Both the position numbers and the translations under genes were made by a program. 33,298 nucleotides of DNA from Betaproteobacteria bacterium HGW-Betaproteobacteria-18 (GTDB taxonomy: Bacteria > Pseudomonadota > Gammaproteobacteria > Burkholderiales > Burkholderiaceae_C): assembly GCA_002842265.1 (NCBI GenBank), contig PHCO01000048.1, positions 1 through 33,298 of the forward strand. Direction: 5' to 3'. Under the pieces are notes generated by a model. The model saw only the letters and a program-made list of their open reading frames with translations, had not been told where the DNA came from and did no database searches. Below are positions 2,275 to 11,614 of this stretch, piece after piece; position 1 is the stretch's first letter, and each line of letters begins with the position of its first letter.

Positions 2275-3456
2275 ATGAACAATTTACCCGGCCTTGACTT
2301 TCAACTCGGCGAAGACATCGACGCGTTGCGCGACGCGGTGCGCGACTTTGCCCAAGCCGAGATCGCACCGCGGGCGGCAGAGATCGACCGCAGCGACCAG
2401 TTCCCGATGGATTTGTGGCAAAAGATGGGCAGTCTGGGCGTGCTCGGCATCACCGTGGGCGAGGAATACGGCGGGGCCAACATGGGCTATCTGGCGCACA
2501 TGATCGCGATGGAGGAAATCAGCCGTGCCTCGGCCTCGGTCGGGCTCTCCTATGGCGCGCACAGCAATCTGTGTGTGAACCAGATCAAACGCAACGGCAC
2601 GCCCGAGCAGCGCGCCAAGTACCTGCCAAAACTCATCAGCGGCGAGCATGTGGGTGCGCTCGCCATGAGCGAGCCGGGCGCCGGCAGCGACGTGCTGTCG
2701 ATGAAGCTCAAGGCCGAAGACAAGGGCGGTTACTACCTGCTCAATGGCAACAAGATGTGGATCACCAACGGCCCTGATGCCGACACGCTGGTGGTCTATG
2801 CCAAGAGCGACCCTGAGCTGGGCGCGCGCGGTGTCACGGCCTTCCTGATTGAAAAAGGCATGAAGGGTTTCAGCATTGCGCAAAAGCTTGACAAGCTGGG
2901 CATGCGCGGCAGCCACACCGGCGAGCTGGTGTTCAACAACGTCGAGGTGCCGGAGTCGCACATTCTGGGTGGCCTCAACATGGGCGCCAAGGTGCTGATG
3001 AGCGGGCTGGACTACGAGCGCGCCGTGCTCACCGGTGGCCCGCTGGGCATCATGCAGTCGGTGATGGACAACGTCATTCCCTACATCCACGACCGCAAGC
3101 AGTTTGGCCAGAGCATTGGTGAGTTTCAGATCATTCAGGGCAAGGTGGCCGACATGTACACCGTGCTGCAGGCCGGGCGAAGTTTTGCCTACACCGTGGC
3201 CAAGAACCTGGATTTGCTGGGTGTGGAACACGTGCGCCAGGTGCGCAAGGACTGCGCTTCGGTCATTCTGTGGTGCGCCGAAAAAGCCACCTGGATGGCC
3301 GGTGAAGGCGTGCAGATTTTTGGCGGCAACGGCTACATCAACGAGTACCCGCTGGGGCGCCTGTGGCGCGACGCCAAGCTCTATGAAATTGGCGCTGGCA
3401 CCAGCGAGATTCGCCGCATGCTGATCGGGCGTGAACTATTTGCCGAGACGCTATGA
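2275..3456 (+). CDS. liuA: Isovaleryl-CoA dehydrogenase
   Basis: This 393-residue FAD acyl-CoA dehydrogenase oxidises isovaleryl-CoA to 3-methylcrotonyl-CoA, passing electrons to ETF. The catalytic base fits Glu248 in [15 protein letters not shown]: isovaleryl-CoA dehydrogenases carry the base at this internal position (Glu254 in the human enzyme), whereas most acyl-CoA dehydrogenases carry it near the C-terminus. Here the C-terminal loop reads [12 protein letters not shown], with Gly-Ala where the usual Glu would be, which supports the specific call. The FAD-binding block [10 protein letters not shown] is also present. The start has a good AGGAGA site 8 nt upstream. It is the first catabolic enzyme of the LiuR-headed cluster. 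Confidence 0.93.
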
Positions 3457-4867: not shown

Positions 4868-5524
4868 ATGACCAAACCCCTCCAAAACCTTATCGACAAC
4901 AACCGCATCTGGGCGGCGCGTATGCAAGCGCAGCAGCCCGGGTTTTTCAGTCAATTGGCGCAGCAACAAACGCCCAAATACCTCTGGATTGGTTGCTCGG
5001 ACAGTCGCGTGCCGGCCAACGAAATCACCGGACTCGACCCGGGTGAGGTGTTCGTGCACCGCAACATTGCCAATGTGGTGGTGCATTCGGATCTGAACGC
5101 GCTGTCGGTGATCCAGTTTGCCGTGGACCACCTCAAGGTCGAGCACATCATGGTCGTGGGGCACTATGGCTGCGGTGGCGTATTGGCCGCGTTGCGCGGC
5201 ACCCGTGTCGGCCTGGCCGACAACTGGCTGCGCCATGTCCACGACGTGAAGCTGCGCCACCGCCGCCGCCTGGACCATTTGACGGTGGCCGAACAGGAAG
5301 ACACCCTGTGCGAAATGAATGTGATCGAGCAGGTGGGCAACGTGGCGCTCAGCAACGTGCTGCAGGATGCCTGGGCGCGTGGCCAAAAAATTGCCGTACA
5401 CGGCTGGTGTTATGGCCTCAAAGACGGTTTGGTGAAAGATTTGGATGTCAGCATGCAGGGTAGCGACGAAGTGGTGAACGTGTTTCGCAATGCGTTCAAG
5501 CGTTATCCTCGCCCGATGCAGTAA
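4868..5524 (+). CDS. can: Beta-class carbonic anhydrase
   Basis: The 218-residue protein interconverts CO2 and bicarbonate. The zinc site is complete: Cys43 and the Asp45-Arg47 dyad in CSDSRV, then His99 and Cys102 in GHYGCGG. These match the E. coli Can residues with an offset of one, and the length is also Can-like. It lies 67 nt after sbtB, in the same direction, so with SbtA/SbtB it makes a bicarbonate supply module inside the leucine-degradation cluster, where methylcrotonyl-CoA carboxylase needs bicarbonate. No signal peptide is seen, so it should be cytosolic. The enzyme call is firm; the metabolic link is inferred. Confidence 0.95.
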   Translation: MTKPLQNLIDNNRIWAARMQAQQPGFFSQLAQQQTPKYLWIGCSDSRVPANEITGLDPGEVFVHRNIANVVVHSDLNALSVIQFAVDHLKVEHIMVVGHYGCGGVLAALRGTRVGLADNWLRHVHDVKLRHRRRLDHLTVAEQEDTLCEMNVIEQVGNVALSNVLQDAWARGQKIAVHGWCYGLKDGLVKDLDVSMQGSDEVVNVFRNAFKRYPRPMQ

Positions 5525-5567: not shown

Positions 5568-7418
5568 ATGTTTCCTACCCGCCTCGACTCCACCCTTGCT
5601 TACGACATTGCCAAAGCCATGATCGATGGCTTTAACCGCCATTACCGGCTGTTTCGCACCGAATCAGCCCGCGCCAAGCACCGCTTTGAAACAGCCGACT
5701 GGCATGGCCAACAGCGTGCCCAGCGTGAGCGCATCGAGTTTTACGACCTGCGCGTGCGCGAGGCCTCGAATCGGCTGGAGCGTGAATTCAAGGCCGGTGA
5801 ACAGCCCATGGAGATCTGGCATCAGGTCAAGCTGCATTACATCGGCTTGCTGGTGGACCACCACCAGCCCGAGCTGGCCGAGACGTTTTTCAACTCGGTT
5901 ACCACCAAAATTTTGCACCGCAGCTACTTTCAAAACGACTTTATTTTCATTCGCCCGGCGGTCAGCACCGAGTACATTGAAAATGATGAAACCGAGAAGC
6001 GCCCGACCTACCGTGCCTATTACCCCGGTGCAGACAATCTGGCCGAAGTGTTGCTGCAGATGGTGCATGACTTTGACCTGCGGCGCGAATTTGTTGATCT
6101 TTCAGGGGATGTGGCACTGGTCACCAAGGCCATGCAAGCGGTGCTGGGCGACGTGAAGTTGCGTGCCAACTTCCAGATTCAGGTGCTCTCCAGCCTGTTT
6201 TTCCGTAACAAGGGTGCGTATGTGGTCGGCAAACTCATCAATGGCTACAACGAGTTTCCGTTTGCCTTGCCCGTTTTGTACACCGCTGGTGAAACCAAAC
6301 TGGTTATCGATGCCATTTTGTTTGGCCAGGACGACTTGCTGATGCTGTTCAGCTATGCGCGTGCCTACTTTATGGTGGACATGGAAATCCCCAGCGCCTA
6401 TGTGCAGTTTTTGCGCAGCATGATGCCGCTCAAGCCACGCAACGAGCTCTACAGTGCGCTCGGTCTGGCCAAGCAGGGCAAAACGCTGTTTTACCGCGAC
6501 TTTTTGTTTCACCTGCGCCACTCCACCGACAAATTCCGCATTGCGCCGGGCATCAAGGGCATGGTCATGCTGGTGTTTGACTTGCCCAGTTTTCCCTATG
6601 TGTTCAAGGTCATCAAAGACTTTTACCCGCCGCCCAAAGAAACCAGCCGTGAGCAGATCAAGGGCAAATATTTGCTGGTGAAACAGCACGACCGGGTGGG
6701 GCGCATGGCCGACACGCTGGAATACAGCGAGGTGGCTTTTCCGCGCAACCGGTTTACCGACGAGCTGATGGCTGAGATTGAAAAATTCGCCCCCAGCCAG
6801 CTTGAGGTCAGCGACCGCGATGGCGACGGCCAACTGGAAGTGATCCTGAAACACGTCTATATCGAGCGGCGCATGATTCCGCTCAACATCTACCTGCAGG
6901 AAGCCTTCGATGCCGGTGGAGCCGACCCTGCCAACACCAGCCCGGCTGCCCAGCGCGCCCGCGAGCAGCTTGAACACGGCGTGATCGAGTACGGCAATGC
7001 CTTGAAGGACCTGGTGGCCGCCAACATCTTTCCCGGTGACATGCTGTGGAAAAACTTTGGCATCACACGCCATGGCAAGGTGGTGTTTTATGACTACGAC
7101 GAGATCGAATACATCACCGACTGCGTCTTTCGCCGGGTGCCCCAGGCGCGCAACGAAGAAGAAGAAATGTCGGGTGAAGTCTGGTACACCGTGGGCCCGA
7201 AAGACGTGTTCCCGGAGACTTTTGGGCCGTTTCTGCTGGGCAATGCCGTGGTGAAAGAAGTCTTCATGAAACACCACGCCGACCTGCTGGATGTGGCGTT
7301 TTGGCAAAGCCACAAAGAGCGGATCCAGGCTGGCCACGTGTATGACGTGTTTCCGTACGACCAGCACAAACGGTTTCACCCCGAGCGCGCCAATGAGTCG
7401 GCACGGGAGTCGATTTAA
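5568..7418 (+). CDS. aceK: Isocitrate dehydrogenase kinase/phosphatase
   Basis: At 616 residues it matches the usual AceK length (about 580-610). AceK phosphorylates and dephosphorylates isocitrate dehydrogenase, diverting isocitrate into the glyoxylate shunt during growth on acetyl-CoA-yielding substrates. Visible hallmarks are the nucleotide-binding APGIKGMVM (about residues 326-334), the lysine-containing [14 protein letters not shown] that follows, and [12 protein letters not shown], whose Asp509 and Asp511 occupy the metal-binding DFG-like position. It starts 43 nt after can and precedes the thiolase by 22 nt. In E. coli aceK sits with aceBA; here it lies among leucine-degradation genes instead, which is noteworthy. 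Confidence 0.95.
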
Positions 7419-7440: not shown

Positions 7441-8622
7441 ATGTCTGATTCAATTGTGATCGTTGGCGCCGCCCGCACCCCCATGGGTGCATTCCAGGGT
7501 GATTTTTCTTCTCTCGCGGCGCATGACCTGGGTGGCGTTGCCATCAAGGCCGCTGTGCAGCGTGCGGGCGTCAACCCCGAACTGGTGAATGAAGTGCTGT
7601 TTGGCAACTGCCTGATGGCCGGCCAGGGCCAGGCACCAGCGCGGCAAGCGGCACTGAAGGGCGGTTTGCCCTTGAGTGCCGGCGCTGTGACCTTGTCCAA
7701 AATGTGCGGCTCGGCCATGCGTGCGGCCATGTTTGCCAACGACATGCTGGCCGCAGGCAGTGCCGATGTGCTGGTGGCCGGCGGTATGGAGAGCATGACC
7801 AACGCGCCCTACCTGTTGCCCAAGGCGCGTGGCGGCTACCGCATTGGCCACGACCGTATTTTTGACCACATGATGCTCGACGGTCTGGAAGATGCGTACG
7901 AACCCGGCCGCTCCATGGGCACCTTTGGCGAAGACTGCGCCGCCAAATACGGCTTTACCCGTGAACAACAAGACGCCTTTGCCACCACCAGCGTGCAGCG
8001 CGCCCAAGTGGCGACAAAATCCGGCGCCTTTGCCGCCGAGATTGCGCCGGTCACGGTGAAAACTCGCGCCGGTGAGATCGTGATTGCCATCGACGAAGGC
8101 CCCGGCAAGGTCAAGCTCGACAAGATCAGCTCACTCAAACCCGCGTTCAAAAAAGACGGCACCATCACTGCGGCCAGCAGTTCCAGCATCAACGACGGTG
8201 CTGCCGCTTTGGTGATGATGCGCGCCTCCACCGCTGCCAGGCTTGGCCTCAAGCCGCTGGCGCGACTGGTGGCCCATGCGGTGCACGCGCAGGAGCCCAA
8301 CTGGTTTGCCACAGCGCCCATTGGTTCGGTTAACAAGGTTTTGGACAAAGCCGGCTGGACCGTGAAAGACGTGGACTTGTGGGAAGTGAACGAAGCCTTT
8401 GCCGTGGTGCCGATGGCGCTGATGCATGAGCTGGGACTGAGTCATGATGTGGTGAATGTGAACGGCGGTGCCTGCGCCCTGGGTCACCCGATTGGTTGCA
8501 GTGGTGCGCGCATCATGGTGACCCTGATGTATGCGTTGCAAGCCCGTGGCCTGAAAAAAGGCGTGGCCAGCCTGTGCATCGGCGGTGGTGAAGCGACTGC
8601 CGTGGCGCTGGAAATGCTCTGA
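7441..8622 (+). CDS. atoB: Acetyl-CoA acetyltransferase (acetoacetyl-CoA thiolase)
   Basis: This 393-residue thiolase has the full catalytic set: nucleophile Cys89 in KMCGSAMRAAM, His349 in GGACALGHPIGCSGAR, and Cys379 in LCIGGGEA, at essentially the numbering of the Zoogloea enzyme. It reversibly cleaves acetoacetyl-CoA to two acetyl-CoA, the last step of leucine breakdown, or condenses acetyl-CoA for polyhydroxybutyrate (then phaA). Neighbours favour the degradative role. The start is set by AAGGAG about 6 nt before the ATG. The last 34 nt, including the stop, are repeated exactly at 10332-10365, flanking an inserted restriction-modification pair; the coding sequence itself is intact. Confidence 0.93.
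   Translation: MSDSIVIVGAARTPMGAFQGDFSSLAAHDLGGVAIKAAVQRAGVNPELVNEVLFGNCLMAGQGQAPARQAALKGGLPLSAGAVTLSKMCGSAMRAAMFANDMLAAGSADVLVAGGMESMTNAPYLLPKARGGYRIGHDRIFDHMMLDGLEDAYEPGRSMGTFGEDCAAKYGFTREQQDAFATTSVQRAQVATKSGAFAAEIAPVTVKTRAGEIVIAIDEGPGKVKLDKISSLKPAFKKDGTITAASSSSINDGAAALVMMRASTAARLGLKPLARLVAHAVHAQEPNWFATAPIGSVNKVLDKAGWTVKDVDLWEVNEAFAVVPMALMHELGLSHDVVNVNGGACALGHPIGCSGARIMVTLMYALQARGLKKGVASLCIGGGEATAVALEML
8589..8622 (+). repeat. 34-nt direct repeat, left copy (3' end of the thiolase gene)
   Basis: This is the left copy of a perfect 34-nt direct repeat whose right copy is at 10332-10365. It starts TGAAGCGACTGCC and ends GAAATGCTCTGA, and it includes the thiolase stop codon. The bases immediately outside differ on both sides, so the match has sharp borders. 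It is the expected footprint of an insertion that duplicated its target. Confidence 0.95.
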
Positions 8623-8627
8623 ACGAA

Positions 8628-8654
8628 ATGGAATTTTTATGCCTGCGATTCCAT
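8628..8654. other. Short inverted repeat between the thiolase and methyltransferase genes
   Basis: ATGGAAT (8628-8634) and ATTCCAT (8648-8654) form perfect 7-bp arms around a 13-nt spacer, 28 bp before the methyltransferase ATG. It could be an operator for the restriction-modification genes or a weak hairpin; there is no U-run after it, so a rho-independent terminator is not supported. No separate control (C) protein gene is present. Confidence 0.4.
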
Positions 8655-8682
8655 CTGCTGGTTCACGCGCTAAGATGACATC

Positions 8683-9600
8683 ATGAACCATCCTATTCCT
8701 AGCTTTGCTAATTGGAGTCCATCTGATCTGAAGAGTGAAATTCTGCTGGGAGACTGCGCGGAGGTACTTCAACGTTTGCCGAACGAAAGCGTTGATCTCA
8801 TCGTAACTTCACCTCCATATGCAGATCAACGCAAGTCAACCTATGGTGGTATCCATCCCGATAAATACGTTGAATGGATGTTGCCTCGAACCGCGCAGAT
8901 GTTTCGTGTGCTCAAAGACGGGGGGTCTTTTGTACTGAATATCAAGGAAAAGGCAATGGATGGGCAGAGGCATACTTATGTGCTGGAGTTGATTTTGGCA
9001 CTGAAAAAACAGGGGTGGCTGTGGACAGAGGAGTATGTTTGGCACAAGCGCAATTGTTATCCTGGCAAGTGGCCAAATAGATTCAGGGATGCATGGGAAA
9101 GATGCCTGCACTTCACCAAGAGCCGGAAATTCAAGATGAATCAGCAATCGGTCATGGTTCCAATGGGAGATTGGGCGCAGACTCGCCTGAAGTCGCTGGG
9201 GAAAAACGATGTCCTCCGCCATGACTCGCAGGTGGGAAATGCATTCGCCAAGAACATTGCGAATTGGCAGGGACGTGACATGGCGTACCCCACCAATGTC
9301 TTGCATCTTGCGACCGAGTGTGGCAACAAGGGGCACAGTGCAGCTTTTCCATTGTCCCTGCCACAGTGGTTTATCAAGTTGTTTACTGACCCCGGTGATG
9401 TGGTGCTGGACCCTTTTGTGGGTTCGGGTACAACCGTGGAGGCCGCCAGTGGTTTGGGTCGCTCCGTCATTGGCATCGACGTACTCGATGAATACGTCCA
9501 AATGTGCCGTCAAAAACTGATTCCCGTACAAGGAGTGTTACTTGAAAAAGCAGCAAAATACAATGTTGACCAAGTCAGCCAAAAAATTTGTCGCCGATAA
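8683..9600 (+). CDS. Type II DNA methyltransferase, beta class, probably N4-cytosine
   Basis: The 305-residue protein has the catalytic motif IV TSPPY at residues 42-46 and the AdoMet-binding motif I DPFVGSGTT at 243-251, so the order is IV before I, the beta-class layout. The (S/T)SPPY form is typical of N4-cytosine enzymes, although N6-adenine cannot be excluded. The variable target-recognition region lies between (about 95-215). It would protect host DNA from the endonuclease gene that overlaps its 3' end. Base composition is visibly AT-richer than the flanking genes and the pair sits between direct repeats, both pointing to recent acquisition. The recognition sequence cannot be read from the protein. 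Confidence 0.9.
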   Translation: MNHPIPSFANWSPSDLKSEILLGDCAEVLQRLPNESVDLIVTSPPYADQRKSTYGGIHPDKYVEWMLPRTAQMFRVLKDGGSFVLNIKEKAMDGQRHTYVLELILALKKQGWLWTEEYVWHKRNCYPGKWPNRFRDAWERCLHFTKSRKFKMNQQSVMVPMGDWAQTRLKSLGKNDVLRHDSQVGNAFAKNIANWQGRDMAYPTNVLHLATECGNKGHSAAFPLSLPQWFIKLFTDPGDVVLDPFVGSGTTVEAASGLGRSVIGIDVLDEYVQMCRQKLIPVQGVLLEKAAKYNVDQVSQKICRR

Positions 9601-10297
9601 CGTTGCACCGAGATTTCACGATAAGTTGCTTGAAGGGCTGGCCAAACTCCGCCTTCCCGCACTCCTTAAACGAAAAAATCCATATCTATTCAAGGCCAAG
9701 GCAGTTCAGTCTGCACCAGACTTGGTCAAACGGCTTCTTGATGCTTACCTGTCCTCTAAGGAAGAAACGATTTTTGGAGACTTTTTGGAATCGTTGGCCA
9801 TTCACGTATGCGGCCAGGCGTATGGCGGTAAAAAGTCGAATGCAGAAGGGATAGATCTTGAATTTGACAGAGACTCTCGCCGGTATATTGTCTCCATCAA
9901 AAGCGGGCCAAATTGGGGAAATTCGCAACAGATCAAGCGCATGATTGCAAATTTTAACCAAGCAAGAAAAATTGCAGGCGTCAAAGTCTCGGTTGAAGCC
10001 GTCAACGGTTGTTGCTATGGCAAAGAGGCAAATCCGCACAAAGGCAGTTATATCAAACGCTGTGGCCAGGATTTTTGGGAGTTGGTGTCTGGCGTTGATG
10101 ATTTTTACCAACAGATTGTTGAACCCTTGGGCTTTGATGCGAAACGTAGAACTGAAGAGTTCGACGAGAAATATGCAGCTGTTATTAATCAATTCAGCGC
10201 CGCGTTCATCTGCGATTACTGCGAGCCTGACGGAGTGATTAACTGGAACAAACTACTGGAATTTAATTCTGGTCGCGTTCTTGCCAAGCAACAGTGA
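9542..10297 (+). CDS. Type II restriction endonuclease, PmeII-like family
   Basis: The 251-residue protein has a PD-(D/E)xK-like core: Glu102 and Asp105 in AEGIDLEF, then SIK with Lys120 in YIVSIKSGPNWGNS. Blocks such as KRKNPYLFKAK, EETIFGDFLE and VNGCCYG recall the PmeII-type endonucleases I know. Translation probably starts at TTG 9542, which has AAGGAG 6 nt upstream; ATG 9563 is the alternative. Either way it overlaps the methyltransferase gene (59 or 38 nt), so translation is coupled with the methyltransferase first. The gene is AT-richer than its neighbours. The family assignment is from recalled similarity; cleavage site and activity are not known from the sequence. Confidence 0.85.
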   Translation: MKKQQNTMLTKSAKKFVADNVAPRFHDKLLEGLAKLRLPALLKRKNPYLFKAKAVQSAPDLVKRLLDAYLSSKEETIFGDFLESLAIHVCGQAYGGKKSNAEGIDLEFDRDSRRYIVSIKSGPNWGNSQQIKRMIANFNQARKIAGVKVSVEAVNGCCYGKEANPHKGSYIKRCGQDFWELVSGVDDFYQQIVEPLGFDAKRRTEEFDEKYAAVINQFSAAFICDYCEPDGVINWNKLLEFNSGRVLAKQQ

Positions 10298-10331
10298 ATT
10301 GCTCACCCTGTTTATTGGCTGACTGTGAAGT

Positions 10332-10365
10332 TGAAGCGACTGCCGTGGCGCTGGAAATGCTCTGA
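10332..10365 (+). repeat. 34-nt direct repeat, right copy
   Basis: This is an exact copy of 8589-8622, the thiolase 3' end with its stop, but here it lies 34 nt after the endonuclease stop and is fused to no gene. It marks the right border of the 1.7-kb restriction-modification insertion. Downstream of it the sequence returns to host-like composition and a REP-type hairpin. Confidence 0.95.
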
Positions 10366-10370
10366 TGTGG

Positions 10371-10446
10371 TCATTGCGATGTGCGTAGCGCCGTGGCAAT
10401 CCATGAATTTGGACGTCGTGGATTGCCACGCTTGCGCTCGCAATGA
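10371..10446. repeat. REP-like long inverted repeat
   Basis: Two arms of about 30 nt, starting TCATTGCGA and ending CGCAATGA, pair around a loop near 10406-10416, with a few mismatches. Each arm contains the GTGGCAATCCA / TGGATTGCCAC core typical of interspersed palindromes in Comamonadaceae genomes. It lies between the restriction-modification insertion and the second acyl-CoA dehydrogenase and may attenuate readthrough or stabilise mRNA ends. A shorter relative occurs at 26287-26314. Confidence 0.75.
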
Positions 10447-10486
10447 CGGGACTCTGTCGGTTTATTTTGCTTTGAAAGCCTGACCC

Positions 10487-11614
10487 ATGCTGCTGACCCA
10501 AGACCAGGAAATGATCCGCGACGCGGTTCGCGCTTTTGCCCAAGCCGAGCTCTGGCCCAACGCCGCCAGGTGGGATAAGGAGCACACCTTTCCCAAAGAA
10601 GTGCACAAGGGTCTGGCGGCGCTGGGTGCCTACGGCATTTGTGTGCCGGAAGAGCTGGGCGGCGCGGGGCTGGACTATCTGACGCTGGCGCTGGTGCTGG
10701 AAGAAATTGCCGCTGGTGACGGTGGCACAAGTACCGTGATCAGCGTGACCAATTGCCCGGTCAACGCCATCCTGATGCGCTACGGCAACCCGGCGCAGCA
10801 AAAGCAGTGGCTGACGCCGTTGGCGCAGGGGCAAATGCTGGGCGCCTTTTGCCTGACCGAGCCACATGTGGGCTCGGATGCCTCATCGCTCAGAACCACT
10901 GCCGTGAAGGATGGCGATGACTATGTGATCAACGGCGTCAAGCAGTTCATCACCAGTGGCAAAAATGGCGACGTCGCCATCGTCATTGCGGTGACCGACA
11001 AGGGCGCGGGCAAGAAAGGCATGAGCGCTTTTCTGGTGCCCACCAATGCCCCCGGCTATACCGTGGCGCGGCTTGAAGACAAGCTGGGCCAGCATTCCAG
11101 CGACACCGCGCAGATCAATTTTGACAACTGCCGCATTCCCGCAGACAACCTGATCGGCACCGAGGGCCAGGGCTACGGCATTGCGCTGGGTGGCCTCGAA
11201 GGCGGCCGTATTGGCATTGCGGCGCAAAGCTTGGGCATGGCGCGCAGTGCGTTTGAGGTGGCGCTGGCCTATGCCAAAGAGCGTCAAAGCTTTGGCACCG
11301 CCATCTTCAACCCCCAGGCGGTGGGCTTCAGGCTGGCCGAGTGCGCTACAAAGTTGGAAGCGGCCCGGCAGTTGATCTGGCACGCCGCATCGTTACGCGA
11401 TGCCGGCAAACCTTGCCTGAAAGAAGCCGCCATGGCCAAGCTCTTTGCCAGTGAAATGGCCGAGCAGGTGTGCAGCGTAGCCATCCAGACCCTGGGCGGT
11501 TACGGTGTGGTGAGCGACTTCCCGGTAGAGCGCATCTACCGTGACGTGCGCGTCTGCCAGATCTACGAAGGCACCTCCGACGTGCAGAAGATCATCATTC
11601 AGAGGAATCTCTAA
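10487..11614 (+). CDS. Acyl-CoA dehydrogenase (short/branched-chain type)
   Basis: This 375-residue FAD flavoprotein has the usual acyl-CoA dehydrogenase blocks: FCLTEPHVGSDASS for FAD/substrate binding and, near the C-terminus, QIYEGTSDVQK with catalytic Glu361, the standard position. That differs from isovaleryl-CoA dehydrogenase (liuA), where the base is internal. It probably oxidises a short or 2-methyl-branched acyl-CoA, for example from isoleucine or valine, but chain specificity cannot be read. No strong ribosome-binding site precedes the ATG. Before the restriction-modification insertion it would have followed the thiolase directly. The enzyme class is certain; the substrate is inferred. 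Confidence 0.9.
   Translation: MLLTQDQEMIRDAVRAFAQAELWPNAARWDKEHTFPKEVHKGLAALGAYGICVPEELGGAGLDYLTLALVLEEIAAGDGGTSTVISVTNCPVNAILMRYGNPAQQKQWLTPLAQGQMLGAFCLTEPHVGSDASSLRTTAVKDGDDYVINGVKQFITSGKNGDVAIVIAVTDKGAGKKGMSAFLVPTNAPGYTVARLEDKLGQHSSDTAQINFDNCRIPADNLIGTEGQGYGIALGGLEGGRIGIAAQSLGMARSAFEVALAYAKERQSFGTAIFNPQAVGFRLAECATKLEAARQLIWHAASLRDAGKPCLKEAAMAKLFASEMAEQVCSVAIQTLGGYGVVSDFPVERIYRDVRVCQIYEGTSDVQKIIIQRNL

Follow-up and report, generated by a model that had tools for sequence, protein, structure and literature searches.

We examined a 33,298-nucleotide (nt) stretch of Betaproteobacteria bacterium HGW-Betaproteobacteria-18 (contig PHCO01000048.1, hereafter the window), in which a DNA methyltransferase gene and an overlapping restriction endonuclease gene lie between two copies of the 3' end of a thiolase gene, ahead of an acyl-CoA dehydrogenase gene. 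This Type II restriction-modification pair was quite probably inserted in the window's lineage with duplication of its target, into a gap that behaves like the sites known as minimal mobile elements. Relatives in the same genus carry the site empty, the thiolase end is duplicated in the window, and cargo in the gap turns over across the genus. As the thiolase end was duplicated on insertion, the thiolase gene stayed whole, in keeping with the original prediction, which had been made from the window alone.

The empty site and the duplicated thiolase end

A DNA match to the thiolase was found in 84 of the 89 genomes of the genus, and the region behind it was taken for 76 loci. The gap, flanked by the same thiolase and acyl-CoA dehydrogenase genes, was measurable in 62 other genomes; among the remaining loci, 13 had no dehydrogenase within the stretch taken and one had no thiolase end. 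In five genomes (G055, G043, G007, G048 and G022) the gap is exactly 15 nt long and holds neither methyltransferase nor endonuclease. In a tree of the dehydrogenase built from 61 of 63 rows (G049 and G063 left out; short sequence), the window groups within a supported clade that also holds these five genomes, G028 (66-nt gap) and G044, which has a short-chain dehydrogenase/reductase (SDR) gene in the gap. Support is 100/99 for the eight rows and 97/91 for six rows with the window, with the bootstrap not fully settled and the window's exact sister not fixed by this tree. Because the window is nested among short-gap relatives, the short gap is likely the ancestral state and the insertion recent in the window's lineage.

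Relatives lacking the pair had been expected to carry a single thiolase end, and they do: the longest match to it in the 49 other gaps of at least 60 nt is 12 nt, and none of the remaining 13 shorter gaps, which were read directly, contains a second one. No relative thus has both repeats without the genes. In the window the two copies are identical at 34 of 34 positions with a mismatch flanking each side, bearing out the sharp borders first described. Allowing up to three mismatches, the 34-mer occurs at these two sites only in the 3.58-Mb, 521-contig draft assembly, and is therefore neither a chance match nor a dispersed repeat. Contigs mis-joined at the repeat could produce such a picture in a draft of so many pieces, but we regard this artefact as extremely improbable, since the genome has no further copy of the 34-mer and relatives show the same syntenic neighbors on either side.

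Other elements of the original description also held up. Only the two genes lie between the copies, no integrase, transposase or terminal inverted repeat was seen in the unit, and the pair is AT-richer than its surroundings (Table 1). The G+C content of 8623-10331 is 0.477 against about 0.61 in the flanks, with values of 0.493 for the methyltransferase and 0.452 for the endonuclease (0.54 and 0.47 at third codon positions) and of 0.617 for the thiolase and 0.612 for the dehydrogenase (0.72 and 0.76 at third codon positions). An Rfam scan of 8300-10900 gave no match at gathering score, and promoter and terminator scans of the locus found sites no commoner than in shuffled sequence.

Table 1. 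Features of the thiolase-dehydrogenase locus, in window positions.
Feature	Position	Strand	Basis
Thiolase (acetyl-CoA acyltransferase) gene, intact, conserved left flank	7441..8622	+	PF00108/PF02803
Repeat copy 1: final 34 nt of the thiolase including its stop, original copy	8589..8622	+	exact repeat; identical 34 nt in G055
ACGAAA, ancestral intergenic sequence, still joined to copy 1	8623..8628	.	relatives
Inserted unit; mobility gene and terminal inverted repeats absent	8629..10331	.	missing in relatives; G+C
Predicted Type II DNA methyltransferase, N4/N6 amino class	8683..9600	+	PF01555, 1boo_A
Predicted Type II restriction endonuclease, EcoO109I/PmeII type	9542..10297, start TTG	+	PF14511
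Repeat copy 2: duplicated thiolase 3' end	10332..10365	+	exact repeat
Palindrome resembling repetitive extragenic palindromic elements, dispersed in the window's genome, not at this locus in relatives	10370..10448	.	
GAAAGCCTGACCC: ancestral intergenic sequence restarts, then ATG	10474..10486	.	cf. ACGAAAGCCTGAACC in G055
Acyl-CoA dehydrogenase gene, conserved right flank	10487..11614	+	PF00441/PF02771/PF02770

The right border differs from what had been foreseen. In the predicted empty site the 34-mer would have led straight into position 10366, but in relatives it is followed by ACGAAAGCC..., so that the empty site and the duplication stand while the ancestral right border does not, a region with a repetitive extragenic palindromic (REP)-like palindrome intervening. 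Copy 1 runs into ACGAAA and then into foreign sequence. After copy 2 come TGTG, the palindrome, 25 nt and GAAAGCCTGACCC-ATG. The corresponding junction in G055 reads ...GAAATGCTCTGA-ACGAAAGCCTGAACC-ATG. ACGAAA follows the thiolase stop in four of the 15-nt gaps (G055, G043, G048 and G022) and in the 66-nt gap of G028; G007, unlike the other 15-nt relatives, reads ATGAAA. Copy 1 with ACGAAA is therefore the original, and ahead of the dehydrogenase GAAAGCCTGA resumes as ancestral sequence. The segment 10366-10473 (the REP and about 30 nt) is itself an addition and not ancestral flank. The palindrome has 52 matching segments in the genome, some of them both strands of one place, and its folding was matched by none of 200 shuffles. 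Lying between copy 2 and the dehydrogenase, it may affect transcription into the latter.

If 10366-10473 is an addition and ACGAAA is ancestral after copy 1, the duplicated target may be about 40 nt. The simplest reading is then a duplication of perhaps about 40 nt whose right copy was later split by the REP, and an empty allele of the form ...TGA-ACGAAAGCCTGA... without REP would favor it. One might suppose instead, though with considerable doubt, that the "duplication" is two alleles in series: a resident thiolase-34-mer-ACGAAA allele without REP and a second allele of 34-mer, REP and dehydrogenase, joined with the pair between them by one homologous and one illegitimate crossover. Such a join would explain in a single step both ACGAAA after copy 1 and the REP after copy 2, and it accords with gap alleles that are exchanged or replaced quickly, yet no REP-bearing empty allele was found among the 15-nt relatives. 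A parallel might be seen in G046, where the intergenic sequence left of the cargo best resembles G021, G024 and G003 and that on the right G026, G016 and G054, but this counts for less, since what the two sides share is a dispersed repeat of about 58 nt.

The methyltransferase, the endonuclease and their relatives

Both reading frames are open, and they overlap by 59 nt. The methyltransferase matches PF01555 with 152 bits and has M.PvuII as its closest solved chain (1boo_A, 1.2e-28), while the endonuclease matches PF14511 (RE_EcoO109I) with 258.1 bits over 191 residues (cut-off 22.5). An endonuclease block, E102-G-I-D105 ... I119-K120-S-G-P-N-W, is invariant across eight aligned relatives; we take it to be the PD-(D/E)XK site and presumably the active site. 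NCBIfam and PADLOC family scans of the endonuclease gave no match, and the search for a solved relative of it found none (best E 0.29). Judged by these families, the two genes are predicted to form a Type II restriction-modification pair, presumably active and perhaps addictive to its host.

Searches of the genus, the order, plasmids, phages and viral contigs found no close relative of the pair. The nearest endonucleases, 60-64% identical, belong to other beta-proteobacteria and to bacteria labelled only "Pseudomonadota". Endonuclease matches were obtained in 9 of 399 genomes of the order, the window's own included, in one phage record and one viral contig, and in 13 plasmid records. The plasmid matches are all below 60% identity and are annotated "PmeII family"; the plasmids are mostly about 5.6 kb, and 11 are predicted to be mobilizable. 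One of these searches used exact 8-residue patterns and therefore reached only fairly close relatives. Within the genus, an EcoO109I/PmeII-type endonuclease is present in 6 of 89 genomes, in two of them inside the thiolase-dehydrogenase gap. Among 55 loci with endonuclease relatives, a methyltransferase-related gene adjoins the endonuclease in 41. One such pair (L055, on a contig labelled Candidatus Omnitrophota) sits in the manner of an integron cassette between putative attC-like repeats (4978-5002 and 6825-6849, with further copies at 3117-3141 and 8356-8380).

This array, and the small plasmids that carry PmeII-type endonucleases, could point to an insertion sequence, integron or phage element that delivered the window's pair and was then lost. 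We judge this improbable, given that the locus retains neither inverted ends nor a mobility gene nor a second repeat. To our knowledge, a duplication of 34 nt also exceeds those made by insertion sequences.

The thiolase-dehydrogenase gap as a recurrent cargo site

Across the genus the gap holds varied cargo: 41 of the 62 other gaps are shorter than 300 nt and 21 are longer. SDR genes occupy nine (G044, G002, G025, G030, G034, G049, G051, G058 and G059), Uma2 genes three (G001, G032 and G039), M20 peptidase genes two (G035 and G082), and a gene that we assume to be RidA-like two more (G019 and G027). Three further gaps (G060, G010 and G065) share a small gene and a gene we presume to be PIN-like, neither with a Pfam match in the examples scanned.

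Complete Type II pairs are present in two other genomes, G046 (PF01555, 185 bits, with Endonuc-BglII, 117 bits) and G013 (the C5-methyltransferase family PF00145, 174 bits, with RE_Eco29kI, 213 bits). In both, as in the window, the methyltransferase precedes the endonuclease and the two run in the direction of the flanking genes. Endonuclease remnants occur in two of the three PIN-like alleles, G060 having none. That of G065 matches the beginning of an EcoO109I/PmeII-type gene (44% over 78 residues) and scores 20.6 bits, under the Pfam cut-off of 22.5; that of G010 comprises two pieces of G046's BglII-like gene, residues 98-114 and 164-203. In each case (L135 3692-4982 for G065, L215 for G010) the small and PIN-like genes precede the decayed pieces. 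Restriction-modification genes, present or past, are thus found in 5 of 63 gaps, the window included, and come from at least three unrelated endonuclease families.

On the dehydrogenase tree, cargo labels change 18 times, compared with 19.0 for shuffled labels and with values as low in 60 of 200 shuffles; a number this near the shuffled one means that cargo turns over fast. The tree gives the pairs three separate origins and the remnants two, with only three and two rows, beyond the reach of shuffle testing. An empty site for G013 was sought in its tree neighbor G050, which gives no recognizable junction. Since the gap gains and loses cargo repeatedly in the genus, it functions in the manner of a minimal mobile element site.

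A dispersed element of about 58 nt (AAATAGCT...GGGCTAGAGCC...) lies in the gaps of G016, G024, G046 and others, often directly behind the thiolase stop. It has at least 40 copies in each of these three genomes and none in the window's. The whole intergenic sequence of about 85 nt is alike on both sides of the G046 pair, and we do not claim it as a duplication, the shared part being this element.

We then asked how far the number of restriction-modification pairs exceeds chance. Methyltransferases of this kind are fairly common in the genus, with 187 PF01555 matches and 73 PF00145 match segments in the 89 genomes. On the rough assumption of about 240 genes and of 3,500 gaps per genome, a p of about 0.002 is obtained for one given gap to hold two complete pairs in addition to that of the window. 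The control consisted of 138 gaps between adjacent genes, taken upstream in this gene cluster at 33 loci; 12 of them exceed 300 nt, most with host-like G+C. PADLOC detected no restriction-modification genes in the 18 open reading frames of at least 150 amino acids from 10 of these 12 long gaps; two AAA proteins gave weak AAA-type matches only. With remnants counted, Fisher's test gives 4/62 against 0/138 (p 0.009), a post hoc comparison, like the chance estimate, in which gaps of related genomes are not independent. These control gaps also take cargo, but host-like metabolic genes that read as ThiC, a MocR-type regulator, CbbQ/CbbO and SulP; they lie between aceK and the thiolase in G007, G047 and G052 and behind carbonic anhydrase in G032 and G055.

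Taken together, the bare pair quite probably entered a gap of roughly 15 nt between the thiolase and dehydrogenase genes, as a fragment of plasmid or transforming DNA most likely captured at a staggered break, and its insertion copied the closing 34 nt of the thiolase, or perhaps some 40 nt if ACGAAA is included. Alternatively, it may have been joined in by recombination, homologous at one end and illegitimate at the other. The REP would have been added at the right, most simply later, splitting copy 2 after the stop codon, and the conserved genes on either side may then have served for exchange and further spread. If the 34-nt copies recombined with each other, the pair could be excised and the thiolase left whole. 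It is less easy to believe that the thiolase 3' end is a preferred, integrase-free entry point at which at least three unrelated families were captured separately, the window being a freshly kept footprint; the local feature favoring capture or tolerance could then be the gene end, dispersed palindromes (such as the REP or the 58-nt element) or breaks from transcription or replication.

Several observations count against insertion with target duplication at such a site. The empty-site comparison is one between species, across about 13% DNA divergence, and the other four alleles with restriction-modification genes or remnants show no duplicated thiolase end. In a direct-repeat survey of the 55 endonuclease-relative loci, an exact repeat of at least 20 nt was found only at L055, where it belongs to the four-copy attC-like array; we therefore rejected long duplications as a rule for this pair family. 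Control spans in the same loci have direct repeats of up to 79 nt, and a value of 199 nt at L034 is an artefact of a minus-strand match and was disregarded. When complete pairs alone are counted, the gap stands out weakly from the controls (2/62 against 0/138, p 0.095). Finally, the REP at the right border separates copy 2 from the ancestral right flank. Had the REP come first, the duplication would be 34 nt long, would end exactly at the stop codon and would leave ACGAAA to chance (roughly 1 in 4000). Borders sharp at 34 nt and a copy 2 that abuts the REP region would suit this order of events, which we nonetheless think unlikely, as it requires the insert to begin with ACGAAA by chance and the REP region to start precisely at the stop.

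Comparison with known systems

The insertion belongs to a known kind and the site resembles another, and their combination at one place is worth following; a literature search found no paper on this thiolase-dehydrogenase locus. Restriction-modification units inserted with a long target duplication were reportedly described by Nobusato et al. in 2000 and Furuta et al. in 2010. In the portion available, PMC3874152 describes insertion of some restriction-modification systems with long, variable target duplications on the order of 100 bp, and PMC3031569, likewise in part, reports the same kind of insertion and also movement linked to insertion sequences. Those cases resemble the window in their bare genes, long direct duplication, lack of a mobility gene and recognition by genome comparison. 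They differ in length, on the order of 100 bp against 34, perhaps about 40 nt, and in that the comparison here is between species and not strains. Peculiar to the window are a repeat that is the 3' end of a gene kept whole and a REP in or beside copy 2.

The endonuclease also has the catalytic-looking E-G-I-D ... I-K-S-G block of the EcoO109I/PmeII family (PF14511). EcoO109I's own methyltransferase is of the C5 class, whereas the window's partner is an N4/N6-class enzyme close to M.PvuII. Elsewhere in the genus, a distant EcoO109I-type match (31%; G008:C224:10509-12588) adjoins a C5 methyltransferase match, an EcoO109I-like pairing.

Minimal mobile elements are said to have been recognized by Saunders and Snyder in 2002 and Snyder et al. 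in 2007 at pheS/pheT and other sites of Neisseria. The excerpted text of PMC3082526 and PMC3898611 gives the definition and a pheS/pheT site with a Type II system. The thiolase-dehydrogenase gap likewise has two conserved genes around varied whole-gene cassettes, Type II pairs among them, with no mobility gene seen. Here the variety is seen between species of one genus, with 21 of 62 gaps longer than 300 nt and at least six kinds of cassette. Unlike a minimal mobile element, one allele keeps its insertion duplication. Minimal mobile elements are taken up solely by homologous recombination in the flanks, a route that the thiolase-dehydrogenase gap may share.

It has long been asked, mostly for Helicobacter and Neisseria, how restriction-modification genes can spread when no mobility enzyme comes with them. 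In a single genus, one gap now combines an unoccupied site, a young insertion that retains its duplication, further complete systems and remnants in decay, so that strains of an environmental bacterium could serve to test directly in which order such genes enter, are exchanged and disappear. The gap has the look of a place where defense genes are swapped without any visible mobility enzyme.

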